A stretch of DNA of 64,000 nucleotides from Vibrio casei (GTDB taxonomy: Bacteria; Pseudomonadota; Gammaproteobacteria; Enterobacterales; Vibrionaceae): contig NZ_AP018681.1 in assembly GCF_002218025.2 (NCBI RefSeq), positions 496,001 through 560,000 on the forward strand. Direction: 5' to 3'. The position numbers and the translations under genes are program-made. Below, in pieces: positions 2,009 to 19,519 of the stretch. The notes beneath the pieces were generated by a model. It was not told the DNA's origin, made no database searches, and saw only the letters and a program-made list of their open reading frames with translations. Within the stretch, counting starts at the first letter, position 1. Each line of letters opens with the position of its first letter.

Positions 2009-2027
2009 GTTATCCACAAAATCGGTG
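2009..2027. repeat. putative left attachment site (attL)
   Basis: GTTATCCACAAAATCGGTG, matching 19501-19519 at 18 of 19 positions. It lies 23 bp after the FtsX permease stop and before the terminator of the leftward phage operon. Bases 2010-2018 also read TTATCCACA, the consensus DnaA box. The crossover may fall in the exact 11-bp CAAAATCGGTG. Confidence 0.6.
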
Positions 2028-2140
2028 ACTGATATTTACTAATATGTGTTGTTAATTCAATGGGTTATGTTTTTACTGTTACAAAGTACATTGTAAAAGT
2101 ATGCCAAATTGTAGCCCAAAATGTGTGACAATTCTAGGCA

Positions 2141-2175
2141 ATAAAAAGCCCCCAACCAATCAAGGCTAGGGGCTT
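2141..2175 (-). terminator. terminator of the leftward structural operon
   Basis: AAGCCCC (2146-2152) pairs with GGGGCTT (2169-2175). On the minus strand the stem is followed by a T run (plus-strand A run 2143-2147). It sits 24 bp after the tape-measure-like gene stop. Confidence 0.7.
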
Positions 2176-2198
2176 AGATTATCTAACTACTTTTAACT

Positions 2199-4268
2199 TT
2201 ACAGACCACCAACCATTATAGGTTGTATTGTTGTATATATGCCGTTGTGAAAAGCATCTGTTTTGCTTACAACATTACCGATTATCTCACCGTCCAGCTC
2301 TACAGTCGTATTAACTACAGGATTAACAGTAATATTATTCTGGTTATTAATAGATTGTTGCGTGCTTGCTGCGGTTGGCTGAGGTGGTACTACTTTTGCC
2401 ATAGTAGGTATAGTAGGAACAGTAGGCACAGTTGGCACTTGAGCATAAGGGTTATAAGTTGGCAATGTACTTGTACTATATCCGTGTGTTTGTACTTGCG
2501 GTTGTGGCTTAGTGTCATTAGAAGGTGTCGGCAATGTACCTAAGTTCATCTTATAGCTACCTAGCCCCGTTTGTGCATATGGATTATAATAATTTTCTAT
2601 AGACTCAGATTTGTTATTGATGACACTTTTATCAATATTATGAATTGAATTTGAGTTGTTAATATTATTGTTTACATCACTTGAATCACTATCATTTGAT
2701 TGTTTCTTATCATCATCAGATTGCATCCAACTTGGAAGCATGCCCACCAATGCCCCCTTGATTTTATCTGCTAAATTACTAAACATATTCAACACATTAG
2801 CACCAAATTCTCTAATTTTATTACTAACAGTATTAAATGCTTCAATAGCCCACTTCACACCATCAACAATTGCGCTTAATGCTTTAGTGAGTAATATTAA
2901 GCGATTTAAAAAAGGTTGGATTGCAAGCCCTAACATATAGCCTAACGGTTCGGCTAACTTCATTAATGTATCGAAAAACTCACTTAACTTACCTTGGGTA
3001 TCTTCACCAAAAGCTTTAGTAAAACCATTATAAAATTTTAAGGAGAAGTTACTCATACTTGTGGAAATGGTTGCAAACATCGAGTCAACTTTTTGTAAGC
3101 GTGTGATATCTTCATCAGTTAAGCCAATGTTGTTTTCCTCGTATGACTTAGTAAGTTGGTTTACTTTTTCTCTGTTTTGATTCATTGCATTGTTTAACTT
3201 GCCTAAATCACTAGCCAATGATTCAAGTACAAATCTACGCTTGCCTTGATCATGAATATTCTTGTTAACATCTGCAAAAATACGGTCAATCATTACACCC
3301 ATGTTTTTATCTGCATCAGCAAAATAGGCTTCAACACTCTGTTTATTGGCTTCTAATGCTCCACTGCGTACAAGTGCATTGATCAGATCGCCTGCACCGC
3401 CACCTCCAGTAAATTCACCTTCTTTATTAAAGCTACCTTCAGATAATGCTTCCCCGATTTTCTCCTGTGTATCGCTGAGCATGTCGATTTGCTTATCGAG
3501 ATTAAACTCTTCACTTACCCCCTGTGAAATGTAAGCACGCCGTTGCAAATCATCTACCGAAATTCCAGTCTGATCAGAACCTTGTTGAAGTCGTTCATAG
3601 CGTTGCTGACCTGAAGTTAACCCCTGTTTGACTGCCATGCCCCCCAAGGCTATACCTGCACCTGCCATTAGCGCGGGATTAAGCGCAATAGGTAACATAG
3701 TTCCGCTTTTAACGTCCTTACTACCTTTACCACCACCGTCATTTTTAGCACGTTCCTTAGCTTGTTGTTTACGTTCGTATGCACTGCGTTGCTTTAGCTC
3801 TCTAGCGTAATGGGAGGTTGTTTTTGCATATTCCTCACGGATCTCGGCCTCTGATTTCTTAGCTGATAAAACCCTTTTAAGTTCCATCTTCTGCTCAAGT
3901 GTTAATCGTGCGTAACTTGCCGAGCGGAATTGTCTAAGCTTCCAATCGTTGAACCTTTTTTGTTGTACACGTTGTTTTTCTAAGCGACGATTTTCTTCCC
4001 TTTGAGCCTTCTCATGTGCACGTTTTTCTGTTGCTAGAGATTTCTTGGTCTCTCGCTCTTCTTGTGCGTTGGTCTTTTTATCATCTCTCAGCCTCTTGTC
4101 GTTACTCTTTTTGTGTAAGTCTAAAAGCTCTTTCTGACGTTTCATTTCCTTTCGGTGAGCATCAGTATTAATTTTATTAAACTTCTTTTCAAAGTCTTGA
4201 AGTTCACGGAATAGCCTACGTTTGTTCTCGAATTCTATACTAATTCCATACTCTGCTATGTTATCCAT
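2199..4268 (-). CDS. tape-measure-like phage tail protein, 689 aa
   Basis: Resembles a tail tape measure protein, the rod that sets tail length and helps DNA passage. Evidence is architectural. Residues about 10-180 form a highly charged K/E/R-rich coiled coil, followed by a Gly/Ala-rich hydrophobic stretch near 190-215 (LPIALNPALMAGAGIALGG). A helical middle follows, then hydrophobic segments around 435-510 (LGYMLGLAIQPFLNRLILL), then an Asn/Ser-rich and Pro/Thr-rich low-complexity tail (repeats of PTVPT near 620). A GAGG-type ribosome site precedes the ATG. It is the last gene of the operon, 2 bp after the 123-aa gene, and closest to attL. At 689 aa it would fit a fairly short tail. No tail tube or tail tip gene accompanies it, which is odd. 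An alternative is a membrane-active coiled-coil protein used against a helper phage. Confidence 0.6.
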   Translation of the reverse strand: MDNIAEYGISIEFENKRRLFRELQDFEKKFNKINTDAHRKEMKRQKELLDLHKKSNDKRLRDDKKTNAQEERETKKSLATEKRAHEKAQREENRRLEKQRVQQKRFNDWKLRQFRSASYARLTLEQKMELKRVLSAKKSEAEIREEYAKTTSHYARELKQRSAYERKQQAKERAKNDGGGKGSKDVKSGTMLPIALNPALMAGAGIALGGMAVKQGLTSGQQRYERLQQGSDQTGISVDDLQRRAYISQGVSEEFNLDKQIDMLSDTQEKIGEALSEGSFNKEGEFTGGGGAGDLINALVRSGALEANKQSVEAYFADADKNMGVMIDRIFADVNKNIHDQGKRRFVLESLASDLGKLNNAMNQNREKVNQLTKSYEENNIGLTDEDITRLQKVDSMFATISTSMSNFSLKFYNGFTKAFGEDTQGKLSEFFDTLMKLAEPLGYMLGLAIQPFLNRLILLTKALSAIVDGVKWAIEAFNTVSNKIREFGANVLNMFSNLADKIKGALVGMLPSWMQSDDDKKQSNDSDSSDVNNNINNSNSIHNIDKSVINNKSESIENYYNPYAQTGLGSYKMNLGTLPTPSNDTKPQPQVQTHGYSTSTLPTYNPYAQVPTVPTVPTIPTMAKVVPPQPTAASTQQSINNQNNITVNPVVNTTVELDGEIIGNVVSKTDAFHNGIYTTIQPIMVGGL

Positions 4269-4270
4269 GT

Positions 4271-4642
4271 CTAACCCTCATTTTTATTATTATTCTGTTC
4301 AATCTCTGGATCGATAACACCCATGACAACTAACTGTAAATACAGGTCTTGAACCTCGGGATCTTCTGGGAATTCTTGGTACAGTTCGATGATATCTTTC
4401 TTGTATCTGTCACTGATAAATACTTGTTCAAGTTCATCAAGTTGTGATAATTCAAGAAACGCTGACCACTCTATTAATTCTTTCAAGTCATTGTTGAAAG
4501 GGCGGATTACCTTCATTAGTTCAATATCTTCACCCTCTACAGTTACTCTTTGCATAACAAGCTCAGGAAGGGGTTTAGATAGCTCATATAAGCGTGATTG
4601 TTGGGCAAGGCTATAGTTTATCGCGTAGTTTAATACATCCAT
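4271..4642 (-). CDS. small acidic protein upstream of the tape-measure-like gene, 123 aa
   Basis: No family recognised. It is acidic and helical, with an Asn-rich end (EQNNNKNEG). Its start overlaps the stop of the 47-aa membrane protein gene (TAATG), with AGGGG as ribosome site, and its stop is 2 bp from the tape-measure-like gene. In tailed phages the gene just before the tape measure is often a tail assembly chaperone. Position and acidity allow that reading, but no sequence motif proves it. No slippery site for a chaperone-type frameshift was recognised. Confidence 0.6.
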   Translation of the reverse strand: MDVLNYAINYSLAQQSRLYELSKPLPELVMQRVTVEGEDIELMKVIRPFNNDLKELIEWSAFLELSQLDELEQVFISDRYKKDIIELYQEFPEDPEVQDLYLQLVVMGVIDPEIEQNNNKNEG

Positions 4643-4785
4643 TATTTACCCCTATTTAATCCGTATTTGTAGGCACATAGTAAAATGATAAAGTTTAAAA
4701 TAATAACTGGTGTGTCGATTCCTAGCATTAGCCCTAATAAGTTCCAAAAGGTTGCTATTGTGAAAAGTTGTAAATGTTTAATCAT
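4642..4785 (-). CDS. two-TM microprotein, 47 aa
   Basis: Starts at the ATG complementary to 4783-4785 and ends in a TAA that shares a base with the next gene's ATG (TAATG). The product (MIKHLQLFTIATFWNLLGL... ending YGLNRGK) is mostly hydrophobic, with two candidate membrane helices (about residues 7-22 and 26-40) separated by GIDTP. Size and topology would suit a small holin-like or membrane-anchoring protein, but no lysis enzyme is nearby, so the function is open. The tight coupling to the 123-aa gene supports real translation. Confidence 0.6.
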   Translation of the reverse strand: MIKHLQLFTIATFWNLLGLMLGIDTPVIILNFIILLCAYKYGLNRGK

Positions 4786-4809
4786 AAAAAATCCTTGTCT
4801 GTTAATTGG

Positions 4810-5427
4810 TTATCGTCTACCTTGAGCTTGGCGGATTGCCTCTTGTTGTGCTTCCTTATTCTTCTCTTCCAAGTGATGACTGTACTCAATGTTGTTTTTT
4901 AGTACATTGATGTTGTATTCATCCACAAACTGCTTAAATGGGAGGTTTAAGGCACGTTCTAGAGGGATTTTGGAATAGATAACCCACTGCATTACCTGAG
5001 CGGTTTCTTCACCATATAAGGCGGTTAGGGCATCTGTTTGTTGTTGAATTAGCTCGTTTGGGCGATTTGCATTCTCAGCACTATTGATCGTATTCTTGAT
5101 TTCTAATCGTTTATCTTTATCCGTTTCTTCAGCTAGTTGAGCACGTAGATTATTCAATCGTTTATTGCTAATCTCAGTTTGTAGATCGGGTAACAATTGG
5201 CATTCATAAAGGGGTTTGATAAACTCGAAAAACTTGTGAATACTTTCAAACACTCCACCTTCAATTTGTACCGATTCCAAAAACTCAAGAATGCTTTGAT
5301 ATGTATCAGAACTAATATCTGTAAGCGGTTTACCTTCGATTTCATTCAAGATTTTGTAAACAGTGGGTAAATGTTTCACGCATAAAAAAGGAGGCATTGC
5401 GCCCCCTGATTGGTTTAAATTTTGCAT
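4810..5427 (-). CDS. helical phage-type protein, 205 aa
   Basis: Not assigned to a family. The ATG follows a GGAG ribosome site lying over the end of the preceding 149-aa gene, 6 bp away. The protein is helical, with charged segments around residues 85-120 (AEETDKDKRLEIKN), a region ALYGEETAQVMQWVIYSKI near 135-155, and a Lys/Gln-rich end (EAQQEAIRQAQGRR). Position before the tape-measure-like gene suggests tail assembly or a scaffold-like role, which is inference only. Confidence 0.6.
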   Translation of the reverse strand: MQNLNQSGGAMPPFLCVKHLPTVYKILNEIEGKPLTDISSDTYQSILEFLESVQIEGGVFESIHKFFEFIKPLYECQLLPDLQTEISNKRLNNLRAQLAEETDKDKRLEIKNTINSAENANRPNELIQQQTDALTALYGEETAQVMQWVIYSKIPLERALNLPFKQFVDEYNINVLKNNIEYSHHLEEKNKEAQQEAIRQAQGRR

Positions 5428-5433
5428 ATAGTC

Positions 5434-5883
5434 TTACTCCGTAGGGGAGGGAGTAGGCAAGTTCAAGCTTGGGAAAAACGTTTCCTTGATATCTTCAAAG
5501 TGACTCTGTAACACTTTAAAAGTTTGAGTGGTTTGCAAGGGTTGGATAAGTTGAGCTTGGAACAGCCACATGAAAACATCCAAACTGTTAATACCCTTAT
5601 CTTCAAGATAGCTATCTACATCTTTGATATGCTCTAAATCATCGTTCACTAGGGTGCTTAAAAGTAAATCTTGAAGTTGTTCAAAATGTTCTACACTAGC
5701 TTTCTGACTCACGACACTGAACAAAATAGTGTACAAATCTGGGCTGTCTTTTTGATCAGATAAGATGCCCACACAAGGAACAAGGATTTTACTTAGCTTA
5801 AATAACTCAATGTTTACGGTTGTTTGTTTCAGCTTTGAAGCTTGAAGGACAACACCATCAAATTCTTTTTTGATTAATTTCAT
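5434..5883 (-). CDS. phage-operon protein of unknown function, 149 aa
   Basis: Start overlaps the preceding gene's stop by ATGA (5880-5883), a sign of translational coupling. The protein starts with a basic MKLIKKEFDG and is then mostly helical (YTILFSVVSQKASVEHFEQL near 50-70; VFMWLFQAQLIQPLQ near 102-116), with a proline-rich end. The layout recalls small tail assembly chaperones, but the similarity is not strong enough to name it. Confidence 0.6.
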   Translation of the reverse strand: MKLIKKEFDGVVLQASKLKQTTVNIELFKLSKILVPCVGILSDQKDSPDLYTILFSVVSQKASVEHFEQLQDLLLSTLVNDDLEHIKDVDSYLEDKGINSLDVFMWLFQAQLIQPLQTTQTFKVLQSHFEDIKETFFPSLNLPTPSPTE

Positions 5884-6143
5884 TTAAGCATACCCTCCAA
5901 AATTGCTTGATCTGCAACAATATTACCTCGTAAGCACTCAAGGTACTCATCTCGCCAATTTAGCCAATACTCGTAATGTTCTTCTAGTGGTTTAAGCTGA
6001 GCGAATCGGTTGTTGTGCCAGTCATAAACAATCTGGTCGCTAAAAATCTGTTTATCCTCGAATTTCTTTAGTTCTCGTTGATTTTTCAAGATAGTATTTC
6101 TGAGAGAATTAATTTGGCTTAGCTTATATTCTGTAGTAATCAT
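5880..6143 (-). CDS. small hypothetical protein, 87 aa
   Basis: No family recognised. The product is helical, with W/Y-rich segments (YDWHNNRF; EHYEYWLNWRDEYLE). It sits 5 bp after the 54-aa gene and overlaps the next gene by 4 bp, so it belongs to the same coupled operon. A GAGG motif about 12 bp upstream could act as ribosome site. Confidence 0.55.
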   Translation of the reverse strand: MITTEYKLSQINSLRNTILKNQRELKKFEDKQIFSDQIVYDWHNNRFAQLKPLEEHYEYWLNWRDEYLECLRGNIVADQAILEGMLK

Positions 6144-6148
6144 TTTTA

Positions 6149-6313
6149 TTATGCCTCGTTGTAATGTTTAATTGAGTCTAAATTTTGAATCTCACCACTT
6201 ACTAATTTTTGATAAATATCCATCTCAAAACGGTACTGATCTGTTGAAGGGGTGAGTGTCTTTAGAAGTTCTGCTTGGGCGAGTTGTCGAGCGATGTTGT
6301 AATCAATAATCAT
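6149..6313 (-). CDS. small hypothetical protein, 54 aa
   Basis: The start chosen is MIIDYNIAR, because its ATG overlaps the upstream stop (ATGA) and a strong AAAGGAGGG lies just before it. A start six codons upstream would place the ribosome site inside the gene. The short helical protein resembles small head/tail accessory products only in size and place. No domain recognised. Confidence 0.55.
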   Translation of the reverse strand: MIIDYNIARQLAQAELLKTLTPSTDQYRFEMDIYQKLVSGEIQNLDSIKHYNEA

Positions 6314-7011
6314 ACACCCTCCTTTACCCATACGTTTTTTGTGCCTTTTTTAACTTTCGAGTAACCCAAGCTTTCCATTGCTGATACTAATAAGCTGTTA
6401 TCTTTAACACTGCACTTAGCTTTAATATCCTCGTAACTAAACTCTGTTACACCATCTAAAAGGGCGGTTAGCTCGTTCTTAACAGTAGCTAATTGCTTAA
6501 ATTGCTCCAAGTTGGGCTTATTGGCTTTCACGAGATCGGCTTCATATTTTGCTAATGCCTTACGTGCGGAGCTTAATGCTTTCTCTTCATCTGCTAACAA
6601 ATCAGCGTTTGCTTGGTCAACTTCTGCTTGATAAGTTTTCTTCACATATTCAATAATTTCTTTTTTATCTGCTTCTTGTTCAGCTTCACCTTTCTCAAAG
6701 ATCAACCAATTATGTTTAAAAAAGTGCAAGTGGAAGTTGTTATCGGATACCTTATGATCGGGGTTGTCGATTAAATAATTACTAAAAGTAATAAATTTGT
6801 CACGATCAAGCATTTGATGCAACTGCACGCTTACAAATCGATCTAGTTTTAATTCCTTGAAGCTCGGTGTAGGGCTTGTGTTAGCAATACCCACACCAAT
6901 GTCATAGCGACTAACATAATTACTAATGCGTTTATCAAGTTCGGCTTGGCTGCAAGTAGCTAATTCAAGGGCGTTGTAGTATTCGTTCAAAAAGTCGTTT
7001 AGTGTTTTCAT
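6310..7011 (-). CDS. coiled-coil protein with a winged-helix-like end, 233 aa
   Basis: No family recognised. Residues about 115-190 form an E/K/A-rich coiled coil (EQEADKKEIIEYVKKTYQ; KALSSARKALAKYEADLVKA). The last ~50 residues (LTALLDGVTEFSYEDIKAKC, then LVSAMESLGYSKVKKGTKN) look like a small winged helix. An AAGGAT ribosome site precedes the ATG. It directly follows the S49 peptidase, the slot of the scaffold or major capsid gene in many tailed phages, but the sequence does not resemble an HK97-type capsid. It could be a scaffold, a substrate of the peptidase, or a DNA-binding protein. Confidence 0.55.
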   Translation of the reverse strand: MKTLNDFLNEYYNALELATCSQAELDKRISNYVSRYDIGVGIANTSPTPSFKELKLDRFVSVQLHQMLDRDKFITFSNYLIDNPDHKVSDNNFHLHFFKHNWLIFEKGEAEQEADKKEIIEYVKKTYQAEVDQANADLLADEEKALSSARKALAKYEADLVKANKPNLEQFKQLATVKNELTALLDGVTEFSYEDIKAKCSVKDNSLLVSAMESLGYSKVKKGTKNVWVKEGV

Positions 7012-7031
7012 TTCGATTGTTATCCTTTATT

Positions 7032-8063
7032 TTATAAGTTATTTTGTTTTAGTTTGGCAATTGCTTGCTGCTTGATATCATCTTCAGATCGTTGAAGTCG
7101 CTTTTTAACAATACTCTGCAAATCCCTTAACTTCTCGGTAGCTTGTTCTACTTTGATGTTCGCCTTAACCTCAACTTTTGAAGCTGAAGGGGTAGCACTT
7201 GGGGCTGAGACTGGTTTACTTCCAATGATCGGCTTACCTAAATATTCGAAAAGTTCTTGCTCCGTCATCAAGTGGTCAACCAGCTTCAACGACATCGCCT
7301 TCTTGGCTGTATAAGTTTTCGCTTCAGTTTTAATCACATCGGCTTTACTCATCTTGCGGTTAGTGCTTACATGGGTAACAAAAGTCTGATATGTCTCATC
7401 CACTTTACTTTGAAGCTCTTGGATGAATTCCGCTTTGAAAGTGCCATCTTGCGCAAAAGGGATTTTCGAATTTCCACTGTAAACAAATGTGCGTTCATAC
7501 CCTTGCTTTTGTAATGCTTGAGAATCATTGAGTAGTGATAAGACAACACCAATCGACCCGATCGAATTTGACTCTGGATGTGAAATAATCTTGTCACAAA
7601 TAGAACCCCAAGCATATGCTGCACTGGCACAAGTTCCGTCCACATAACCAATTAACTCAATACCGTGTTTTTGTGCAAGTTGCTTAACCTCAGTACAACT
7701 ACTAAATACTTTATACGCTTCACCGCCACCGCTTTGAATGTGGAAAAGTACACGCTTAATACTTGAGTTTTGTGTATAAGCTTGCATTTGCTCAACAATA
7801 GATTGATAAGAAGTCATACCGCATAAAGCTTCCATTGGCATTTTATCCGCTACTAATGCACCGCTAATTTGAATCAGGCCAGTATTTGAGGGTAGGTTAC
7901 TCTTGATGCTTTTGAACTTTGCGCTGCGCTCGAATTCAGCCTCTAACTTCTGTGATTGAGTCGCAATTGTATGGTTAGCTAGAACAGAATTAACATTGCT
8001 AAGAAGAGTGGGTGTTGCTAAAAGTGGGGTGTTTGTAATCTTGCTGTTGTATAATGTAATCAT
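7032..8063 (-). CDS. S49-family (SppA-like) phage serine peptidase, 343 aa
   Basis: Serine peptidase of the SppA/S49 group. Phage members mature the prohead by cutting scaffold and capsid proteins. The nucleophile is the Ser in GTCASAAYAWGS (about residue 147) and the general base is the Lys in YSGNSKIPF (about residue 199), giving the Ser/Lys dyad of the family. FHIQSGGGEAYKVF is the oxyanion-region motif and SNSIGSIGVV follows the nucleophile, as in SppA. The Lys-rich C-terminal tail (residues 285-343) may be a linker or scaffold-like extension. No signal peptide is seen, so a cytoplasmic, virion-assembly role is likelier than membrane SppA. The absence of a recognisable capsid gene makes its substrate uncertain; it might act on a helper phage. 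Confidence 0.85.
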   Translation of the reverse strand: MITLYNSKITNTPLLATPTLLSNVNSVLANHTIATQSQKLEAEFERSAKFKSIKSNLPSNTGLIQISGALVADKMPMEALCGMTSYQSIVEQMQAYTQNSSIKRVLFHIQSGGGEAYKVFSSCTEVKQLAQKHGIELIGYVDGTCASAAYAWGSICDKIISHPESNSIGSIGVVLSLLNDSQALQKQGYERTFVYSGNSKIPFAQDGTFKAEFIQELQSKVDETYQTFVTHVSTNRKMSKADVIKTEAKTYTAKKAMSLKLVDHLMTEQELFEYLGKPIIGSKPVSAPSATPSASKVEVKANIKVEQATEKLRDLQSIVKKRLQRSEDDIKQQAIAKLKQNNL

Positions 8064-8075: not shown

Positions 8076-8561
8076 TTATAAAAAACTGACTTTAATAAAA
8101 TGATCTCCGATCATGATGGGTTTGTTTGCGTGTATTTTTCTATACATTGTCGAAAGTGTGAAATTAAACACTGATTTATTAATGTTGTAAAAGTTAATAA
8201 CACCATGATTAAACACTGTAGTTTTATTATTAAGTGAGTCGTAGATTTGAATTGGTTTGTTATGTGCCTCTCTTAAATTCTCTGACTTACTCAATAATCG
8301 GCAGTTCTTAGCACTGTAATTCCCCTCATCAAATAATCTAGCAATCTGAGGTTTATCTATTTTTGTGTAATCACGCCCTTGAGATTTTTCATATTCCAAA
8401 AAATCCATTACTTCGAAAATATTTTCAAACTCACACTTTACATTTAAATAGTTTGGATGCTTACTACACCGTGATTTTATGTTTGCGTACACATCTCTAA
8501 TTTTCTTTAAATGATGTTTGAAATGTGGATATTCTTGCTCGAGTTGTTGTGTTAGTGTCAT
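8076..8561 (-). CDS. HNH-like endonuclease, probably degenerate, 161 aa
   Basis: The start is set at MTLTQQLEQ, six bases after an AAGAGG ribosome site; a longer upstream reading would translate a trinucleotide repeat. Residues about 25-95 resemble phage HNH/homing-type proteins: YANIKSRCSKHPNY, an acidic/aromatic stretch, then DEGNYSAKNCRLLSKSENLR, the analogue of the usual D-x-(D/E)-GNYSPENCRW segment. The expected His residues of a full HNH site are not clear, so catalysis is doubtful. The rest (QIYDSLNNKTTVF...) looks like a DNA-binding repeat. It lies 12 bp before the S49 gene. Confidence 0.55.
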   Translation of the reverse strand: MTLTQQLEQEYPHFKHHLKKIRDVYANIKSRCSKHPNYLNVKCEFENIFEVMDFLEYEKSQGRDYTKIDKPQIARLFDEGNYSAKNCRLLSKSENLREAHNKPIQIYDSLNNKTTVFNHGVINFYNINKSVFNFTLSTMYRKIHANKPIMIGDHFIKVSFL

Positions 8562-8580
8562 TATTGACCTCTTATTTTCT

Positions 8581-8598
8581 AGTAGTAGTAGTAGTAGT
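8581..8598. repeat. trinucleotide repeat (AGT)6
   Basis: Six AGT units between the 68-aa gene and the HNH-like gene, 9 bp upstream of the latter's ribosome-binding site. Read on the minus strand the units are ACT. Slippage could change spacing of the intergenic leader. Confidence 0.9.
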
Positions 8599-8607
8599 AT
8601 TGTTGTG

Positions 8608-8814
8608 TTAAATTCTAATATTTTTGATATTATTGAAGCTATTATATAGTTTGATAGCATCTTGTATTAATTCGGCTTGTTTAAAATCTTTATAGAGATA
8701 TATACATCGATGTCGGTGGGTATATAAAGTCGAGAGTTTGATTTTACCATTTAATAGTAAACTAAGAATTTCCTCTGCTGACTCGTACACCTTGCGTTTG
8801 TGGCTTAGTGTCAT
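8608..8814 (-). CDS. small hypothetical protein, 68 aa
   Basis: Starts MTLSHKRKVYES after an AAGGAA site. A possible start 12 codons upstream has no such site. It is basic, with a helix-turn-helix-like stretch (SAEEILSLLLNGKIKLSTLYTH), so it may bind nucleic acid. It is the first gene after the 8959-8993 terminator-like hairpin and may open the structural operon. Confidence 0.5.
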   Translation of the reverse strand: MTLSHKRKVYESAEEILSLLLNGKIKLSTLYTHRHRCIYLYKDFKQAELIQDAIKLYNSFNNIKNIRI

Positions 8815-8958
8815 ATGTGTTTCCTTGAAAAAAGGGTGTAGCCTTGGCATTGGAAAGGAGAAGAAACCAACGTCAAAGCTACAAATAGATTTTAGAAATT
8901 AGGAGATAAAAAGGGGGATTAGGTGCTAAGTTTTTACTTGCAGTTAGTAATAAAAAAT

Positions 8959-9202: not shown

Positions 9203-9448
9203 TTATGCTAAATTCTTTATTTTAGAAGGTAAGTGATTAGGGCTTGAGTTAATATAAATGCTGTATTTGAGAGTCTGATAGTTTTCGAGCCAGATCAAAA
9301 ATAATTCCTCTTTGATTGGGTTGTCTTTAATTTTATACTGATAGTATTTTTTGAGTTCAAACTTGTCGAGTACATATTCTTTTTCGTTGATTAGCACTGT
9401 ATTTAATGATCTAGTGTTATTTGGATTTAATATAAGTTGTCTTTTCAT
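9203..9448 (-). CDS. small hypothetical protein, 81 aa
   Basis: No family recognised. It follows an AGAGGA ribosome site and lies 135 bp downstream of the polymerase gene on the same strand. It is basic and rich in Tyr/Asn/Lys (KKYYQYKIKDNPIKEELFLIW). Strong A/T bias exceeds that of the flanking chromosome, as in the rest of the element. Confidence 0.5.
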   Translation of the reverse strand: MKRQLILNPNNTRSLNTVLINEKEYVLDKFELKKYYQYKIKDNPIKEELFLIWLENYQTLKYSIYINSSPNHLPSKIKNLA

Positions 9449-11980: not shown

Positions 11981-12793
11981 TTAGTTTCCTATATAGCAGA
12001 CACACGAAAACCTACCGCTAGAACTCTAGAGTAAGTAAAAGTAAGTCAGATTTGATTTAATGATGAGGCGAGAGATTGAGTAGAAGTGAATTTTTTCTCA
12101 ATCCATAGAACCATTTTCGCATGTAATCGGGATCTTGTCAACAGTTGAGAATGATTATTATTTAGATTAAAGGTGTTTTCTGTGTGTTCTGCTATTAAAA
12201 ATCACTAAATAAGGTTTCATTGGTATTGGTTTGTGTTGTACTGGTTGTCTAGGGTGGAGTATTGTATGGTTATTTGTATAGTGTACAGGTTTATATTGTT
12301 TATTTAGGTTAATGGTGAGTAAGAGGGAATAAGAGGAGGAGGGAGGAATAAGGGGGAAGTGAGAGAGTAGGGGAGTATGTAGGACAGTATTTACTATATT
12401 ATTGCTATATATCAATCACTTAGAGTATGTTTGTCTAATTCACGATGCTATTAATGTGAGTATTTCCCCTCCAATAGTCACTATTACCCATTGAATGGGC
12501 AAGGGGGAAAGGGTTAGGTAAGGAGGAATGGAGGGAAGAGGGAGAGTAGGGGAGTATGTAGGACAATAAATACCAACAAACCTTTATATACCAATGCTTC
12601 CAAGAGGTTTTGTCTAATTCACGAGGTTGATTTAGTGTAGTATTTACTCTAAATCACATCCCACAGACACTTTACACTTTACCTGTACAATTGCATTAAG
12701 ATGATGCTAAAACGTCTGTGAGAGCCATACAAGCCGTTTTACGGTGAACTAGGTTCATTCCCATAGGGAACATATAGACGCCTTAACGGTGAA
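11981..12793. other. gene-poor interval with a 179-bp tandem duplication
   Basis: No convincing gene. A 24-nt block beginning GAGAGTAGGGGAGTATG occurs at 12363-12386 and 12542-12565, and TTGTCTAATTCACGA at 12431-12445 and 12610-12624; both pairs are exactly 179 bp apart. Purine-rich GGGA/GGAGG tracts precede each copy. Near 12690-12790 CGGTGAAYTAG occurs twice. This may be a regulatory, replication or packaging-type region. Confidence 0.6.
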
Positions 12794-13279
12794 TTAGCTT
12801 AGTGTATGATGACTACTCAAAGTTAGCAGTGAGTATAAGAGACTAAATTGTCCCCTAGGTATATAAGGGCTGAACATTAGAGAACCCAATTCGGGGGAGT
12901 CCGAATTATTGCGGATGAGGTATATCAAGGATGTGCAAAATTGCGTTTTGTATAGCTTGTAAGCACCGTGGTCACTGGGAAGGGATGAAAAATACGATCC
13001 CAAGGATTTACCAATATCTAGGTATGATAGTTTGTTATGTTTCCAACCAGAATCGAGTAGTTGGTTGAAAATCGGCTTGGAAGTCCCGTCCTTATTGGGA
13101 TACGGTGAATAAACGTTTTCCGATTTCTTTGCAATATCAAGATAGGATAAGGACTCCTTTTTAATACAATGTTGGTCAATTGCATCGTTGGGACGAATAT
13201 ATTCCAACACTTCAGCAACCATTTGTCCACGAAATAATGCTTCCTCTTCACCATCCACATTCTTGAAGTTGTTTAGCAA
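12794..13279 (-). pseudogene. frameshifted second half of a duplicated BRO-N/SYLDI-module gene
   Basis: Reads VDGEEEALFRGQMVAEVLEY, the same BRO-N-like stretch as in the gene just upstream, then two more SYLDIAK-type modules (about residues 43-80 and 83-120). It is out of frame with 13248-13790. Compared with the upstream copy, 56 nt are missing between two CAAGAA repeats, which explains the frame change. The last ~45 residues are unlike the repeat. It is probably not translated on its own; no ribosome site is seen at its first ATG-like codon. Confidence 0.6.
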
Positions 13280-13790
13280 TACTGTTTTCTCTATATACGT
13301 TTAAGTTGTTGTTTTTATTAAGATCCGTATAATGTACGGAACTTGTTTTAGCTATATCAAGGTAAGATAAACGTTTAGTTACCAATGGTGTTTGTTTCCA
13401 ACCTGAGTCTAACAATTGTTGAAATAATGACTTTTCTGGTTGTAAGCTGTTGTTTTTATTAAGATCGGATTTATTCACTGATCTTGATTTAGCAACATCT
13501 AGGTAAGACATCTTTCTGATATCAAGGCAATTATTTTGTACAGATTTAACTAGATCCTCATACCCCAACACTTCAGCAACCATTTGTCCACGAAACAGTG
13601 CTTCCTCTTTACCATCATCATTCTTGATAACAACTGTTTCAATTTGATGCCCATTGAAATCAAAAAGGCAAAGTTCTTCTTGAAGTTGTTTAGCAACACT
13701 GTTTTCTTTATATACGTTTATGTTGTTGTTTTCATTAAGAAGGCTATTCGATAGACTTCTTGAATTCTTAGAAATATCCAAATAAGACAT
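13248..13790 (-). CDS. BRO-N-like protein built of repeated SYLDIAK modules, truncated
   Basis: The start at MSYLDISKN directly follows the upstream stop (TAA-ATG), implying coupling; an upstream start 22 codons earlier is possible. The product has module A (SYLDISK...VAKQLQE), a BRO-N-like piece (LCLFDFNGHQIETVVIKND, then EEALFRGQMVAEVLGYE) as in phage antirepressor-type proteins, module B (SYLDVAK...LLDSGWKQ), then a second module A. The A-BRO-B unit recurs with a 420-nt period, so the locus is an in-frame tandem duplication later broken by a 56-nt deletion. The protein stops at ECGW, just past the deletion point. Function unknown; BRO-N suggests DNA binding. Confidence 0.55.
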   Translation of the reverse strand: MSYLDISKNSRSLSNSLLNENNNINVYKENSVAKQLQEELCLFDFNGHQIETVVIKNDDGKEEALFRGQMVAEVLGYEDLVKSVQNNCLDIRKMSYLDVAKSRSVNKSDLNKNNSLQPEKSLFQQLLDSGWKQTPLVTKRLSYLDIAKTSSVHYTDLNKNNNLNVYRENSIAKQLQECGW

Positions 13791-13791
13791 T

Positions 13792-13980
13792 TTACAAATA
13801 AGTTCGACAGTATTGATTCTTAGATTGCTCCACTTGCTTAGTGTTACCTTGACCATCTACATAAACACATACTTGGCGAGTATCAGAAATTTGTTGAGAG
13901 TGGGATAGTTTCCATTGAGAGGCATTGGCTAGACTAGATACAGATAGCATTAAGATTGCAGGTAGAGTGAGTTTGATCAT
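13792..13980 (-). CDS. small exported protein with signal peptide, 62 aa
   Basis: MIKLTLPAILMLSVSSLANA is a classic signal peptide with an ALANAS-type cleavage site. The mature part is about 42 residues with two Cys (QVCVYVDG; QYCRTYL) that could form a periplasmic disulfide. It is unusual in a phage-like element and might be a morphon-type periplasmic or superinfection-exclusion factor, which is inference. It lies directly upstream of the BRO-like gene. Confidence 0.6.
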   Translation of the reverse strand: MIKLTLPAILMLSVSSLANASQWKLSHSQQISDTRQVCVYVDGQGNTKQVEQSKNQYCRTYL

Positions 13981-15563
13981 AGTAGTCCCTTATTCAGTAT
14001 TCTTTCTTCAATTCTACTTCATTCTATCAATGGGGGTAATACAGTTAACCAAGATACCATTCTACAAGGGATTGTTCACACGATAACCCCTAAAAACAAT
14101 TTTAATGTGTTGGATGATGGTCACAGTGTTGTCATGCTTGGGGTGGTATTGTTAGAGTAAATAACAGGGGGTAAAGTGTACTGTATGGATGAACAGTGAT
14201 TTAACAACATTCACTTGCACATTACCCCTTAAAACCTGACTCATAAGTCAAGAAATTGTAACATTACAACACCCTTGTACTATCTAGCTAGTACACTAAC
14301 CTAGGGTTACAATAAAACCTACACTAAAACACCACACTCTGGCACAATAAACCCTCATATAAGCCCCTGATAGCCTCTATACAGTGTTTTAAGTATATAT
14401 TAGTGCAGTTATAACCATATACACCAATAACGCCTACAAGGGGACATATAGAAAGGATTTATACACCACAAGATACAATTGTTATAATATAACATTACAG
14501 GATATATACGATTTACCATATATGAATAAAATTTCACTCTAATATGATTATGTGTATAAGTAATAATAAACTCATTAAACATGAATAAAATTAATGATTG
14601 TAAATTACAGCAACAATACACCATTTCCCCTAAATTCCTCTTGTTTTTACAGTGCATCATTTTGGTGCGTTTTATTAACATAATTCAAATTCAAATTTCC
14701 ACTATAAACACCAACATTTACCCCACAATATGCAGACTTCAGGAAGATTTATTGATAAGCCTGTTTTCGAATTTTACATAATGGGTGTAATGCGTAGTAG
14801 TAACCATAATACGCACTAGCTAATTCGCCTGTAACCATTGATACATAAGGGTTTGCTATGATTATACCAAGTGCGCTTATGCTAAAACTTTGTACAAAAA
14901 GGTACTTATGGGGAAGTGTGGAAAGGTGAGGGCATCGCCCTAAAGGGTGCATATTATGATGAATGATTATGTAGTTTTGGTGAGTAGATATTTTGAGGTT
15001 CTATGGGGTACAGGGTGGGCTAATATGGGTAAGCTAAGCCAGTCAATCTAAATTTCCCCCAAAATTCCCAACTTCACACTACAGATATTTTCCCCCAAAA
15101 TTCCCAACCTCATACCCCCGAAATTTCACCCTAATTTTAAAATTTTTAGTAAATTCTCAGATATTGGGGGTTAGCCTTTATGGGTATTAGAACAATTGTC
15201 TTACATCCATATTTTAGATATTCAACAATACAACTCACAATAATAAATAACTGTCAATAGATAATCTGAAATTTATTGAATTTAACTGTCATTCATGGTA
15301 TAATTGATAATAAGACGCATTAAGATTAAGAGCCTTATCTCTTAAATCTACCTTTTTAGCGATAACAGGGGTAGGCGTCAAACTCTCAACACCCCAAGAT
15401 CCTTTTACTTTCCCTATTCAACACCAATTTCACCTTAGAATTTATGATTTTAGGGTGTTACCTGCGTGTTTGTAACCTATTGATTAATAACAAATTGACA
15501 GTTAGATAACAGGGGGTTAAGAGGTCACTATATAACACAATAACGAGGTATAAATTTGTATCC
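13981..15563. other. 1.6-kb region without a convincing gene
   Basis: AT-rich, with many short repeats and only weak open frames (for example on the minus strand at 14749-14952) lacking ribosome sites. It lies between the divergent leftward and rightward modules, so it probably holds promoters, an origin or a packaging site. A TTGACA hexamer at 15495-15500 is a possible -35 for the rightward module, without a good -10 at normal spacing. Confidence 0.5.
15053..15108. repeat. two 20-bp direct repeats
   Basis: TTTCCCCCAAAATTCCCAAC occurs at 15053-15072 and again at 15089-15108, 36 bp apart. A partial third C-rich motif (TACCCCCGAAATTTC) follows near 15112. Iteron-like spacing makes an origin or operator plausible. 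Confidence 0.75.
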
Positions 15564-15845
15564 ATGATCGAACAAGACCAACTAAACAAGATCGCTATAC
15601 ATATTCAAGATGAAACCATGAAATTGGCTTACTTTTTGTGTAGTGATTACACACGAATGAGCGAGCAAACTAAGCAAGTGATCGCTTTACTATCCATCAA
15701 TCAAAGCTATGACCAAGTGATTGAGCACACAGGTTTTAACTTAAAGCCCGACACAATAAAACGCTATGCCTACCGCTATCGAGAAGTGATCGATTGTTGT
15801 AGTAATTACGCTATAGCCGAATATAAAAAACATCATCTAATCTAA
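15564..15845 (+). CDS. small hypothetical protein, first gene of the rightward module, 93 aa
   Basis: No family recognised. The helical protein ends with a possible DNA-binding HTH (SYDQVIEHTGFNLKPDTIKR). A GAGG lies about 14 bp before the ATG, rather far. The next gene follows after 16 bp, so the three small genes 15564-16639 are probably one transcript. Confidence 0.55.
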   Translation: MIEQDQLNKIAIHIQDETMKLAYFLCSDYTRMSEQTKQVIALLSINQSYDQVIEHTGFNLKPDTIKRYAYRYREVIDCCSNYAIAEYKKHHLI

Positions 15846-15861
15846 TATAAGAGACTATAAA

Positions 15862-16245
15862 ATGACCAACACCGCATACGATACAAAACAAATCCCTTTC
15901 CCTATTCAAGACCGTATTAACAACCGTGTAGATACTTCTGATCCGACAAATAAAGCCATTATCGAGAAGAATAAGGTACTCAAAAAGATCAATGCTAAGT
16001 ACGGAATGATGGTGGATTACTTGATTCGTGTTATCGAGTCAGAAGAAGAAAAGACAGGTGAGCGCATGAAAGCTATTAGTACGCTCATGAGCTTACAAGA
16101 GAAGATTTTGAAAGAGTTTGGTACTGAAGACCAGAAAACAAAACAAGTTTTAGAAGGTGAGAAAGTGAAAACTCCAGAACAACCAGAAGAAGCTCCTCAA
16201 CAAAGCTTAACATTAGCGCAACTTCTAGAACGAGATGGGAAATAA
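15862..16245 (+). CDS. charged hypothetical protein, 127 aa
   Basis: No family recognised. Highly charged, with a helical core (NKVLKKINAKYGMMVDYLIR; MKAISTLMSLQEKILKEF) and a Glu/Pro/Gln-rich C-terminal linker ending in LTLAQLLERDGK. It weakly recalls small DNA-packaging or terminase-small-type proteins in size and layout, but no diagnostic motif is present. The next gene starts 1 bp after its stop. Confidence 0.5.
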   Translation: MTNTAYDTKQIPFPIQDRINNRVDTSDPTNKAIIEKNKVLKKINAKYGMMVDYLIRVIESEEEKTGERMKAISTLMSLQEKILKEFGTEDQKTKQVLEGEKVKTPEQPEEAPQQSLTLAQLLERDGK

Positions 16246-16246
16246 T

Positions 16247-16639
16247 ATGGCGAGAGAAATTAGATACAACGGCACTCATGCGGAGTTAGCTTTCACAACT
16301 TTATCAAATTTTGGTTATACAGAAAGCGATCTCTCTTCAGTCCATATTTACCGCCCACTTGTAACATTAACAAGTGCGGAATGCTCAGAAGTTTTACAAA
16401 GTTTTGTTTCTGGAAAGGCTGAATATATTCATGCACTGTTCAAAGAATACGGCACAGACGGTGTTTACATGGTATTGCAAACATTCGTGGAGAATATCGA
16501 ATCTAACTTTAGAAATGGGGTATTGTACGAGGTTGATATCATGGATGCACAACTTTGTTCAGCTTGGGACTATGCTCTTGCTAATGTTATCCCTGAGTTG
16601 GTAGCACCGAAAGAAATCTTAACCTTACATTACCGTTAA
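16247..16639 (+). CDS. hypothetical protein, 130 aa
   Basis: The start is taken at ATG 16247 (MAREIRYNG), 1 bp after the preceding TAA; an ATG 12 bp upstream in the same frame is possible. The acidic alpha/beta-looking protein (TSAECSEVLQSFVSGKAEYI; YGTDGVYMVLQTFVENIESN) has no recognised family. It closes a three-gene run of small proteins. Confidence 0.5.
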   Translation: MAREIRYNGTHAELAFTTLSNFGYTESDLSSVHIYRPLVTLTSAECSEVLQSFVSGKAEYIHALFKEYGTDGVYMVLQTFVENIESNFRNGVLYEVDIMDAQLCSAWDYALANVIPELVAPKEILTLHYR

Positions 16640-17061: not shown

Positions 17062-17115
17062 GCTTTTGCCCCCCAAGTTTCTTCATTGTCCTTAACACAA
17101 AAAGGACGATAGAAC

Positions 17116-17649
17116 ATGAAGCAAATAAAACACCACTCTCAACTTGTTAACGCTATTATTGCGTCAAACCTTCCGATCTCATCTACTGATAAGCTTGTAC
17201 TTAGTACATTGGTGACACACCTCAATTTAGTAAAGAATGAATCTTTTCCTTCACAAAGTCGCATAGCCTCAATTTGTGGTTTATGTCGTGCCACTGTAAA
17301 CCGTTCTATTCAAAAACTTGCTGAACTTGGTTACATATCAATCAAGAAAATCGAGCGCATTAATGGCATTGGATTACGTAACCTATACACGCTCAAATCA
17401 AGCCTTATCAAAGCGTTATCAGTGGTTATCCCTAAACTTGGTACATTAGCATCAAGAGTATTCAAACAAGCTCACAGCAAGCCTACAAGCCCAAATACAG
17501 GTACTAATCAAACATCATCAATATTAGATAAAGCCAATAAAGACTTTGAAGAACATTATACACAAATTTCTAATACTAGACGTGCTGATCTGAGTGTTGT
17601 ACAAGCCCTGAAAGCGTCTCTACGTTGTACTTCTAAAGGAGGGCTTTAA
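17116..17649 (+). CDS. HTH_36-type winged-helix protein, 177 aa
   Basis: Residues about 20-90 match the HTH_36 pattern seen in phage and plasmid replication or regulatory proteins: STDKLVLSTLVTHLNLVKN, FPSQSRIASICGLCRATVNR, IQKLAELGYISIKKIERING, LRNLYTL. The C-terminal half is low complexity (Ser/Thr/Lys-rich). It may start replication from the adjacent inverted repeats or control the element's switch. A helper role for the polymerase is plausible. The start ATG follows a weak AGGACGATAG site. Confidence 0.7.
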   Translation: MKQIKHHSQLVNAIIASNLPISSTDKLVLSTLVTHLNLVKNESFPSQSRIASICGLCRATVNRSIQKLAELGYISIKKIERINGIGLRNLYTLKSSLIKALSVVIPKLGTLASRVFKQAHSKPTSPNTGTNQTSSILDKANKDFEEHYTQISNTRRADLSVVQALKASLRCTSKGGL

Positions 17650-17650
17650 T

Positions 17651-17779: not shown

Positions 17780-17800
17780 GTAGTGGGGTATTGTGCCCCT

Positions 17801-19450
17801 TTAACTTGGTATAGCTTGTACAACATTATCGAGTTGCTTTAAGTCGATTAAGTGTGTACTTATGTAATCTTTCTTAGTGCCTTTTTGGGTGTGCCCAACA
17901 ATAGCGTTGATCATAGTATCCGTAGCACCATAGCTTACTAATGAAGTCATAAAATTATGGCGTAGACTATAAAATGATAATAGTTCGCCTTGTTCGTTTA
18001 AGTTGTCTATATCAAGCTTTCTGAGTAGTTTTGTAAACATCATACTTAATGCCTCTGACGATATATTAAAGCCATTGTTAGCTTTGATGTAGTCCACTAC
18101 GCCACGATCAATAAGATACTTATGTATTGGTACTCTGCGTTGTGCGTTGTCGGTTTTAGTACCTTTGATGTAAAAATACAATACACCTGTATCATCATCA
18201 GTGCGTATATCTTCGAGGGTAATAGCTAGGATTTCCTTGTTGCGCATACCACCAAACAACTGCATATAGAAGCAAGCCCCATGATCATCTAAGTCTAAAC
18301 TATCATAGTATGCTCTTAACTTATTCAACTCACTTTTGTTAAATGCACCACGGCTAGAAAGGTCAGTAAATCGCTTGAATCGGGATTTTGTGATCGGGTT
18401 TTCTTCTAGAATATTCGTATCGTATAACCACGTAAAAAACCTATTAAACTTACTCTTAACACGTCCTAGTTGCTTATCTTGTCGTGCATCTTCTGGAGTA
18501 TCACCACTTCTAGCAAGATCTAAACATTCTTCCATAGACATTTTTTTATAATGTTCCTTACGCTTCGGGAAGGCTGTTAATGTAACAAGCATTTCATCGA
18601 ATTGACTGTAATCAATATCATGTATATTCGTAGATCCGAAATATGGTGATCCCAATCCCTCAATCCATGTCAGGCTTTCAGTTATTGTTTTTGTGGCAAT
18701 TTCTTTACCTTTTTCATTCTTGTATAAGTAACTGTTTTTATCCTTTTTGTACTTCTCTAGAGCATGGTTATAGCTTAAAAATGATTTCTTCTGTAGTTGT
18801 TGAGATTGGGTAGTATAAACTTGTGATTGCGTTACGGTGTCGCGATTAAATGAGTGCTTGAGATTATCAACTACGGGTTTTAGTTGTGTTGTATCCGTAG
18901 TTTTCAATGCTTGTACGTACTTATTCAGTAATGTGATCAAGGCTTCTTGTTCTACAAATTCTTTCTCGTAGACAAGCGTTGGATCTTCATACATCAAGTA
19001 TTCTTTCAAGCTCTGAGGTATATCAACATCCTTGAGTTGTTGCTTAATCCAATCATCTAAGTTCAAGATCGGTTTTCTGTCGGGTAAGCCTTCGACAAAA
19101 GGCACATTATCCAGTTGGTTATTGTGTAAGCTGTTGGGTGTGAAGTGGCTATGAAAGTACCTTGTTAACTCACTTTTAGCTTGCTTGCTTTGTGGTTGCA
19201 ATATTGCTGTAACTTTATCTATAACCCTGTCAATCTCTTCCTGAACAACTGCCTTAATAATTTCTATAGTCACTCTCGCCCCCTCAATCCTTTGTTTTAT
19301 AGCTTTGATTATACTTTTTGCTGTCCAAATGTCTCTTGTTTGTAAACTCAATCGAAACACTTTATTACCAATCCGCTTATTAAAATAAAACCAATCCGAC
19401 CTACGTATTAAATATTTGTGTGCCATAATGTGTGCCAAAAAGTGTGACAC
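17801..19450 (-). CDS. tyrosine-recombinase integrase, 549 aa
   Basis: Site-specific recombinase that would integrate and excise the element. C-terminal catalytic residues are visible: Arg in FGGMRNKEIL (about 413), the RH pair in SLRHNFMTSL (about 497), His in IVGHTQKGTKKDYI and Tyr in DYIS (about 529). Residues about 215-320 form the SAM-like core-binding domain, preceded by a long N-terminal helical region. Its length is at the upper end for the family. The start may be this ATG or the in-frame ATG at 19426 (MAHKYLIRR). It reads into the element with its start 51 bp from the right repeat, the usual int/att layout. Confidence 0.9.
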   Translation of the reverse strand: MSHFLAHIMAHKYLIRRSDWFYFNKRIGNKVFRLSLQTRDIWTAKSIIKAIKQRIEGARVTIEIIKAVVQEEIDRVIDKVTAILQPQSKQAKSELTRYFHSHFTPNSLHNNQLDNVPFVEGLPDRKPILNLDDWIKQQLKDVDIPQSLKEYLMYEDPTLVYEKEFVEQEALITLLNKYVQALKTTDTTQLKPVVDNLKHSFNRDTVTQSQVYTTQSQQLQKKSFLSYNHALEKYKKDKNSYLYKNEKGKEIATKTITESLTWIEGLGSPYFGSTNIHDIDYSQFDEMLVTLTAFPKRKEHYKKMSMEECLDLARSGDTPEDARQDKQLGRVKSKFNRFFTWLYDTNILEENPITKSRFKRFTDLSSRGAFNKSELNKLRAYYDSLDLDDHGACFYMQLFGGMRNKEILAITLEDIRTDDDTGVLYFYIKGTKTDNAQRRVPIHKYLIDRGVVDYIKANNGFNISSEALSMMFTKLLRKLDIDNLNEQGELLSFYSLRHNFMTSLVSYGATDTMINAIVGHTQKGTKKDYISTHLIDLKQLDNVVQAIPS

Positions 19451-19500
19451 ATACCAGTAAATACTGTACAGATAGACTCAAAGCACCGTATAGCTAAAAA

Positions 19501-19519
19501 GTTATCCCCAAAATCGGTG
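19501..19519. repeat. putative right attachment site (attR)
   Basis: GTTATCCCCAAAATCGGTG, 18/19 identical to 2009-2027, 51 bp upstream of the integrase start codon. GTTATCCC (19501-19508) is also inverted as GGGATAAC (19530-19537), giving an arm-like palindrome absent at the left copy. Confidence 0.6.

Follow-up and report, generated by a model that had tools for sequence, protein, structure and literature searches.

What kind of element occupies positions 2009..19519 of a 64,000-nucleotide stretch of the Vibrio casei genome (contig NZ_AP018681.1, positions 496,001 to 560,000; hereafter the window)? An earlier note, made from the sequence alone, had described a bounded 17.5-kb block and had proposed either a phage satellite of a layout unfamiliar to its author or a phage with very diverged head genes. 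Our analysis indicates that the block is probably an integrated PLE-like phage satellite with a helper related to phage ICP1. The satellite proposal is supported by the gene content, the bounded site, a second copy of the same layout on the same chromosome (copy B), genes of helper type and purifying selection. The layout is a familiar one after all, since both it and the chaperone gene are those of the PLE satellites of ICP1.

Boundaries and gene content of the element

The block is a real, site-bounded insertion, as had been claimed. It is flanked by 19-bp direct repeats that are identical in 18 of 19 bases, and a relative, G245, carries the corresponding empty site:

2009..2027, no strand: left attachment core GTTATCCACAAAATCGGTG (direct repeat; empty site in G245)
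19501..19519, no strand: right attachment core GTTATCCCCAAAATCGGTG (direct repeat; empty site in G245)

On both strands of the window, the core pattern matches at 2009 and 19501 only. Among 31 genomes queried with the right flank, G245 gave the best match, with both flanks joined around a single GTTATCCACAAAAACGGTGGATAA, which identifies the element as a site-specific insertion of ~17.49 kb. The insertion point lies between ABC-permease-like and FAD-dependent oxidoreductase-like genes (names from our reading of the products). The attachment core includes TTATCCACA, the DnaA-box consensus, and the integrase may use a DnaA-box-like intergenic site. In the empty site (L048), TTATCCACA is followed by GGTGGATAA.

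Read on the minus strand, the element consists of the integrase, four genes on the opposite strand, ~3.6 kb with few open reading frames (ORFs), a block with a ribbon-helix-helix (RHH)-like and a polymerase-like gene, and a late block with protease, chaperone and tape measure. Passages of PMC7567579 (2020) describe PLEs as an int cluster, a sole minus-strand cluster, a noncoding region of ~3 kb and two rightward clusters, with the origin in the rightmost quarter of the noncoding region and repA in the first rightward cluster. The features on which the comparison turns are:

2199..4268, minus strand: tape measure protein, 689 amino acids (aa) (phrog_2854 1.2e-10; family profile A5 leads to ICP1 gp79 and 11895-B1 gp102)
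5434..5883, minus strand: tail assembly chaperone of PLE type, 149 aa (PDB 5IR0 1.8e-9; 11895-B1 tail assembly chaperone 3.2e-6)
6310..7011, minus strand: 233-aa protein, coiled coil with predicted C-terminal winged helix (structure model; ratio of nonsynonymous to synonymous change, dN/dS, 0.09 over 156 codons)
7032..8063, minus strand: S49 protease of head-maturation type, 343 aa, its scaffold region shortened (phrog_53 7.1e-71; Pfam 5.4e-25)
9584..11320, minus strand: phrog_4756 protein with polymerase-like motifs and C-terminal Cys-rich tail, putative replication protein (phrog_4756 7.1e-68)
11289..11477, minus strand: 62-aa RHH-like protein, overlapping the start of the polymerase-like gene (weak matches: Pfam 0.011, phrog_11622 0.0018)
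11981..15563, no strand: central region in PLE-like position, ~3.6 kb with repeats and few convincing genes
17116..17649, plus strand: 177-aa winged-helix protein, replication-initiation-like (Pfam HTH_36 4.7e-13; phrog_270 4.5e-10)
17801..19450, minus strand: tyrosine integrase, 549 aa (phrog_1 1.9e-21; NCBIfam XerA/XerD-type below cut-off)

The tyrosine integrase, the S49 peptidase and the tape-measure-like protein had all been named by the earlier note, and these assignments hold. Scans of 20 products each against Pfam and PHROGs (the two sets differing by one product) revealed no recognisable gene for a capsid, portal, terminase, tail tube, sheath or baseplate or for lysis, in agreement with the note's remark that no terminase, portal or capsid gene was visible. 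The stop-to-stop frames longer than 240 codons number four, and each has an assignment (tape measure, polymerase-like protein, integrase and protease), so that a portal or large terminase of the usual size would not fit; the suggestion of a phage with very diverged head genes is thereby disfavoured. We also rejected a complete tailed prophage, as terminase, portal, major capsid, tail tube and lysis genes were not recognised.

Tail module, head protease and putative helper

Searched against the PDB with phmmer, the chaperone found a sole chain at E<=10, 5IR0 (PLE1 ORF19), and a four-sequence chaperone profile reached the same chain at 5.1e-23; among PHROGs it matched phrog_29715 (5.1e-4). In passages of PMC12987554 (2026), the 5IR0 chain is the tail assembly chaperone (TAC) of PLE1, and PLEs place their own tape measure protein (TMP) in tails otherwise built of ICP1 parts, forming chimeric tails via TMP and TAC. 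The same passages report that PLEs carry tmp and tac and that satellites of other Vibrio species have putative tmp genes, and the legend of Extended Data Fig. 10 places tmp in putative satellites outside V. cholerae.

Weak chaperone matches (E 8e-4 to 4e-3) were found in 8 phage records from 5 phages, all of Vibrio or Shewanella and 126-149 kb in size, and the chaperone family profile reached 11895-B1 (2.7e-10) and ICP1 (1.8e-4). The tape measure protein alone had no tblastn match in the phage records; its family profile (A5) matched ICP1 gp79, a part of the TMP (4.1e-7), and 11895-B1 gp102 (2.2e-5). Satellite TMPs measure 582-689 aa (full-length rows), and the ICP1 TMP parts 342 + 325 aa as judged from coordinates. 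Tail shortening as the purpose of the satellite TMP was rejected, there being no clear difference between these lengths. In the putative helpers an HNH homing endonuclease interrupts the tape measure gene, and ICP1 has the same arrangement (L027 27580-30647; NC_015157 39191-42994); part of PMC12987554 reports that splicing is involved in making the ICP1 TMP. The tape measure gene of the window has no interruption.

The protease is 43-50% identical over the protease domain to proteins of 127-139-kb Vibrio phages and is nearest to those of the 277E43-1/PS17B-2 type. It matched 1041 phage records, of which the best 20 underlie our statements; the best 12 of these 20 are Vibrio phages of 127-139 kb. 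In all seven phage relatives compared (277E43-1, PS17B-2, VnaP, S4-7, AbaM_P1, D'Alembert and Barba9A; 455-482 aa) a long C-terminal region, coiled-coil-like by eye, follows the protease domain, and the second gene downstream is annotated as hypothetical in S4-7 and as a major capsid or head protein in the other six. The satellite proteases of the window and copy B, with 343 and 345 aa, retain the protease domain and lack the long coiled region. Ser147 aligns with the SppA Ser, and Lys200 aligns with a position that reads Ala in the aligned SppA chains, presumably the catalytic Lys199, mutated in those crystals.

The C-terminal end of the satellite protease, SEDDIKQQAIAKLKQNNL, is similar to the end of the 277E43-1 protein. 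Its score was reached by 6 of 5000 shuffles for 277E43-1, 93 for S4-7, 609 for VnaP and 1844-2436 for three remote phages, and by 121 of 5000 when summed over 5 of the 6 phages. In the excerpted part of PMC5644958, SaPI1 CpmB and the helper scaffold bind coat via a common C-terminal helix and hook of 16 residues. By analogy, the S49 protein suggests a protease-fused mini-scaffold for small capsids. A wider idea, possible but less likely than not, is that PLE-like satellites can set capsid size from inside: an S49 protease-scaffold copy that has lost the coiled ruler and kept the coat-binding tail would nucleate small procapsids, cut itself out and occupy the place that the external scaffold TcaP has in PLE1, the capsid module thus being exchangeable and the tail module conserved. 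In titles and abstract openings, our literature search found no PLE-like satellite with a head protease described. Such a mini-scaffold would be a testable further route to shrinking a stolen capsid, beside an external or a separate internal scaffold. A scan of viral contigs with the protease, A1, A2, A5 and the 277E43-1 relative gave nothing useful.

The protease, chaperone, tape measure, polymerase-like protein and a decayed antirepressor all have relatives in ICP1-related myoviruses of ~126-149 kb. Among the ICP1 ORFs of at least 100 aa (93 in the part compared), 48 were matched at 1e-5 in 11895-B1, 21 in the 277E43-1 parts and 12 in the PS17B-2 part, and the ICP1 coat, portal and large terminase were matched in all three phages, its sheath and hub in 11895-B1 only. 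Part of the ICP1 review PMC9040626 treats 11895-B1 under the relations of ICP1 to other phages. From these sequence relationships we infer that the helper would be an ICP1-related virulent myovirus, perhaps a mosaic of a 277E43-1-type S49 head protease and an 11895-B1-type tail.

Upon infection by such a phage, the tyrosine integrase would excise the element, probably with a phage-supplied cue, and the RHH/phrog_4756 cassette, perhaps together with the 177-aa initiator-like protein, would replicate it from ~12-15.5 kb. The late minus-strand block would then intervene twice in helper assembly. In the head, the S49 protease, with its shortened scaffold and helper-like C-terminal tail, would compete with the helper protease-scaffold for coat and yield small capsids for 17.5 kb of DNA; at the tail, the chaperone would load the element's own tape measure into tails otherwise made of helper parts. 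Heads would be filled by the helper terminase and portal, possibly redirected by the 233-aa winged-helix protein, and after lysis the satellite would spread and the helper yield would drop.

It is quite improbable that the element is instead an immobile locus serving mainly as a defence island, its protease, chaperone and tape measure acting as dominant-negative assembly inhibitors. PLEs restrict ICP1 and tail-targeting defences exist, according to passages of PMC12987554, and misfitting structural proteins could poison assembly, but the uninterrupted integrase, the attachment repeats, the replication-type genes and the second copy at another site all argue for a mobile satellite, and PADLOC gave no strong defence match among 10 products (best E 0.0088). 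Satellite and defence roles are compatible rather than exclusive.

Second copy, relatives and replication genes

Copy B is located at G000:C2:589774-612429 (L003, L004), with ~74 kb between the nearest ends of the two elements. It splits a gene for an M48-type peptidase (our reading of the product), its recombinase is of the serine type (sub-threshold matches to XisF and CcrC) and its polymerase-like gene has diverged to 28% identity over 352 residues. Its order is nevertheless that of the window: the 93-aa gene, the central region, the 62-aa and polymerase-like genes, those of 81 and 80 aa, HNH, S49, 233 and 87 aa, chaperone, 205, 47 and 123 aa, and tape measure. Copy B contains five IS3-like two-ORF pairs and one IS66-like transposase ORF (names again read from products), and three of its genes are interrupted (233-aa, 205-aa and tape measure), so that it looks decayed. 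Between the copies, dN/dS is 0.09-0.36 in 12 of 13 segments and saturated in the HNH gene, and there are very few changes in the 93-aa gene; these values point to purifying selection. The remaining features of the window element are listed here; L018 is a related locus in G023, a genome of another genus of the same family.

4271..4642, minus strand: 123-aa protein between chaperone and tape measure (89% identity to copy B; dN/dS 0.16)
4642..4785, minus strand: 47-aa small protein (89% identity to copy B; dN/dS 0.36)
4810..5427, minus strand: 205-aa protein downstream of the chaperone (L018 relative at the same place, 5e-5; dN/dS 0.19 against copy B over the N-terminal 92 codons)
5880..6143, minus strand: 87-aa protein (95% identity to copy B; 85-aa gene at the same place in L018)
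6149..6331, minus strand: 60-aa ORF (ORF only; no copy B BLAST partner at E<=0.01)
8076..8660, minus strand: HNH endonuclease-like protein (phrog_374 2.2e-5; same place in copy B and L018)
8608..8850, minus strand: 80-aa protein (79% identity in copy B; L018 relative 1e-5)
9203..9448, minus strand: 81-aa protein (86% identity in copy B; dN/dS 0.12)
11580..11759, minus strand: 59-aa ORF (ORF only)
11756..11980, minus strand: 74-aa protein, first of the minus-strand block (copy B and L018 also have short genes there)
12794..13856, minus strand: decayed BRO-N/antirepressor fragments (11895-B1 Ant; Pfam Bro-N 0.036)
15564..15845, plus strand: 93-aa protein of the opposite-strand cluster (99% identity in copy B)
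15862..16245, plus strand: 127-aa protein (ORF; copy B remnant of 28 aa, 100%)
16235..16639, plus strand: 134-aa protein (weak phrog_30968 match, 1.7e-4)

Small genes are thus many, as first noted, whereas the statement that many of them overlap by ATGA went too far. Two neighbouring pairs do so (5880-5883 and 11756-11759; mechanical ORF starts, bases checked), and the remaining overlaps measure 1, 11, 22, 32 or 53 bases.

The earlier note had proposed a search for the same gene order in other Vibrio genomes; besides copy B, much of it recurs in L018. The tape measure family (E<=1e-12) is present in 3 of 329 genomes of the bacterial family, namely that of V. casei, G023 and G043, and in 2 of the 8 genomes of the genus of G023 and G043, which is not Vibrio. 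With the chaperone profile, 394 genomes of the order yielded the window's own genome only. A wider search with the tape measure protein gave 12 proteins, four of them named, all as 'hypothetical protein' (Vibrio litoralis, from a metagenome-assembled genome, V. casei, V. diazotrophicus and V. metoecus). In L018, BLAST links the chaperone, 205-aa, 80-aa, HNH, tape measure and integrase genes, and the rest are matched by place only. A replication-initiation-like protein (phrog_270) stands at the polymerase position, and the tape measure is followed by a tail-completion protein (phrog_222, 8e-30) with matches in 11895-B1 (7.5e-12) and ICP1 (6.2e-8). In the other genus (L018 1-16000, L019), the integrase gene is located at the tape-measure end rather than beyond the central region, and it converges with the late genes. 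Weaker tape measure matches in G225 and G226 belong to apparently ordinary prophages, judged from ORF lists. Recombinase, replication protein and putative capsid module vary among the copies and relatives while chaperone and tape measure stay, which suggests tail takeover as the core of the family.

These comparisons bear on an outcome that the earlier note had named as refuting a satellite, a deleted remnant of an ordinary tailed prophage in which protease, chaperone and tape measure were kept by chance. True phage-type structural genes are present and copy B is decaying through insertion sequences, as such a remnant might, but the same partial set and order persist in copy B despite another recombinase type and a diverged polymerase-like gene, and the same order, without the protease, occurs in another genus. 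Together with purifying selection and the PLE layout and chaperone, this makes a remnant highly improbable. In addition, two prophages of the genus (L020, L021) have ORFs resembling terminase, portal and capsid genes beside the tape measure (by eye, from ORF lists).

For the putative satellite's replication, the protein that had been called a PolA-like polymerase offers motifs only. Its seven aligned relatives have in common an invariant Asp, an Arg...Lys pair and His-Asp, which we take to resemble motifs A, B and C of the PolA/single-subunit RNA polymerase superfamily. It has no Pfam model and, by PDB profile, no solved structure, and an AlphaFold model from two sequences had a mean predicted local distance difference test (pLDDT) score of 33.5 and no usable fold; the model was not used. 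The function of phrog_4756 is listed as unknown. Of the 51 phage records in which it occurs, 34 are of Vibrio, and the list opens with seven Vibrio phages of 127-142 kb (record details are from the best 20 of 51). The relative in copy B (1e-11) and the family profile found ICP1 gp100, which the window protein alone did not.

In both satellite copies, and likewise for five phage genes examined (two in 277E43-1, two in 11895-B1 and the ICP1 pair gp99-gp100), the polymerase-like gene is overlapped or immediately preceded by a small ORF that often looks RHH-like by eye; in L018 a similar ORF stands before a different replication protein. Most simply, the RHH/phrog_4756 pair may be read as a replication cassette common to satellites and helpers. 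The phage copies of this satellite-type cassette could be decoys or nuclease-linked anti-satellite devices. In 11895-B1, the small RHH-like ORFs immediately before or overlapping both phrog_4756 genes (L025 26613-26813, L024 33214-33342) are not annotated in the record. The Cys-rich tails of the two satellite proteins (window 9587-9784 against G000:C2:599586-599771) are 53% identical over 66 residues, in contrast to the 28% found over 352 residues, as if the tail had been exchanged or were specially constrained.

The central region contains two repeat blocks 179 bp apart (12354/12533) and a 36-bp tandem pair (15053-15124), and the mostly non-coding segment 14153-15945 aligns with copy B over 1798 columns at 95% identity. 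Two BRO-N pieces match Ant of 11895-B1 (13251-13856, 3.3e-13; 12794-13279, 2.8e-4). The BRO-N fragments at 12794-13856 are repeated, with recurring (M/L)SYLDIAK-like peptides, and 12943-13790 has no DNA counterpart in copy B. At the DNA level, no match between the element and phages was seeded by an exact 28-base shared word, even at E<=10.

Structure prediction, also proposed earlier, was of use for the C-terminus of the 233-aa protein and failed for the polymerase-like protein. The single-sequence 233-aa model has a mean pLDDT of 54.6, with only residues ~171-230 at 80-88. Foldseek gave a best E of 0.38 and none at E 0.001, winged-helix proteins being frequent in the list; on this model, the protein could be a small terminase or a regulator. 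The 233-aa family and the 267-aa protein of L018 had no significant match in the PDB, genome-contig scans with the polymerase-like and 233-aa proteins and a search of the plasmid collection with P0003 gave nothing useful, and a homolog search with A6 returned only itself.

Comparison with PLEs and other satellites

The likeness to PLEs lies in the cluster order, the ORF19-homologous chaperone, the presence of a tape measure protein, the lack of a portal and the relation to phages of the ICP1 type, as well as in an integrated element of similar size with its recombinase beside one attachment site. PLEs are ~18 kb in size, and the recombinase of PLE1 is a large serine recombinase. Where PLEs have RepA, the window element has its phrog_4756 protein, and an initiator-like winged-helix protein stands in the opposite-strand cluster. 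Its late block includes a head protease, nearest to phages of the 277E43-1/PS17B-2 type and not to ICP1, whereas PLE1 has TcaP (ORF17), two ORF numbers before the chaperone (ORF19). No MarR-like gene was found beside the central region of the element; part of PMC7567579 reports that PLE3 is also without one.

Several points weigh against a PLE-like satellite with an ICP1-related helper. The recombinase of the window copy is of the tyrosine type, and the protein comparison with PLEs involved ORF19 only, for which reasons we file the element as PLE-like and not as a PLE. With a TMP length near that of ICP1, no altered tail length is predicted. The mini-scaffold proposal rests on truncation and on a C-terminal likeness that passes the shuffle test for the nearest phages only. 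L018, whose contig starts inside the element, has no S49 protease (BLAST E<=0.01; profile E<=1), so the protease is seemingly not general to the family. As to the helper, the element's protease had no match in 11895-B1 or in the part of ICP1 searched, and the sheath and hub of ICP1 and 11895-B1 had no match at 1e-5 in the 277E43-1 and PS17B-2 parts compared. No single examined phage is the best match to all shared genes, the chaperone and tape measure being nearest to 11895-B1/ICP1 and the protease to 277E43-1/PS17B-2-type phages.

That no ICP1-like sheath and hub were found in the compared parts of 277E43-1-type phages slightly weakens the ICP1-related helper and strengthens the alternative of a satellite with a different helper, such as a temperate siphophage or a prophage of the same genome. 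The L018 tape measure also weakly matches phages of ~33-47 kb, and the best matches to the shared genes are spread over more than one of the phages examined. We nevertheless consider a different helper unlikely, as protease, chaperone, phrog_4756, the L018 tail-completion protein and the antirepressor point to the wider ICP1-related group, and the V. casei genome gave neither a match to the 277E43-1 coat protein (a search without positive control) nor a Pfam TerL_ATPase match (a model positive in 3 of 14 control genomes).

Among other satellites, a capsid-forming phage-inducible chromosomal island (cf-PICI) was rejected on the grounds that the element has no capsid, portal or terminase of its own in the Pfam and PHROGs scans and no unassigned frame above 238 codons. 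P4 satellites have a set of Psu, Delta, Sid and alpha primase; a P4-like satellite was rejected, as the same scans matched none of this set. The E. coli satellites with major capsid protein, TMP and baseplate component described in part of PMC10448857 are similar in their partial tail set, their tyrosine and serine recombinases and their modular replication proteins, but there a major capsid protein is present without a prohead serine protease, whereas in the window element a protease is present and no capsid protein was recognised. SaPI1 CpmB (passages of PMC5644958) offers a similar idea, a short satellite scaffold with the coat-binding C-terminal motif of the helper scaffold; it is a free small scaffold, whereas the window tail is fused to an S49 domain and would bind coat by analogy. 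The plasmid satellites TG93 and TG54 of Vibrio crassostreae (passages of PMC13230959) are likewise Vibrio satellites with a head maturation protease; they are episomal and have their own capsid proteins and terminase subunits, whereas the window element is integrated and none of these was recognised.

Our literature search found no paper on satellites or prophages of V. casei. PLE-like elements in other Vibrio species were reportedly described by LeGault and colleagues in 2022. What is new is thus this element within a known family, with the protease and the replication cassette as variant features. The PLE strategy, known in detail only from V. cholerae and ICP1, would extend to another Vibrio, which carries two copies on a single chromosome, and a PLE-like relative would occur in another genus of the family.

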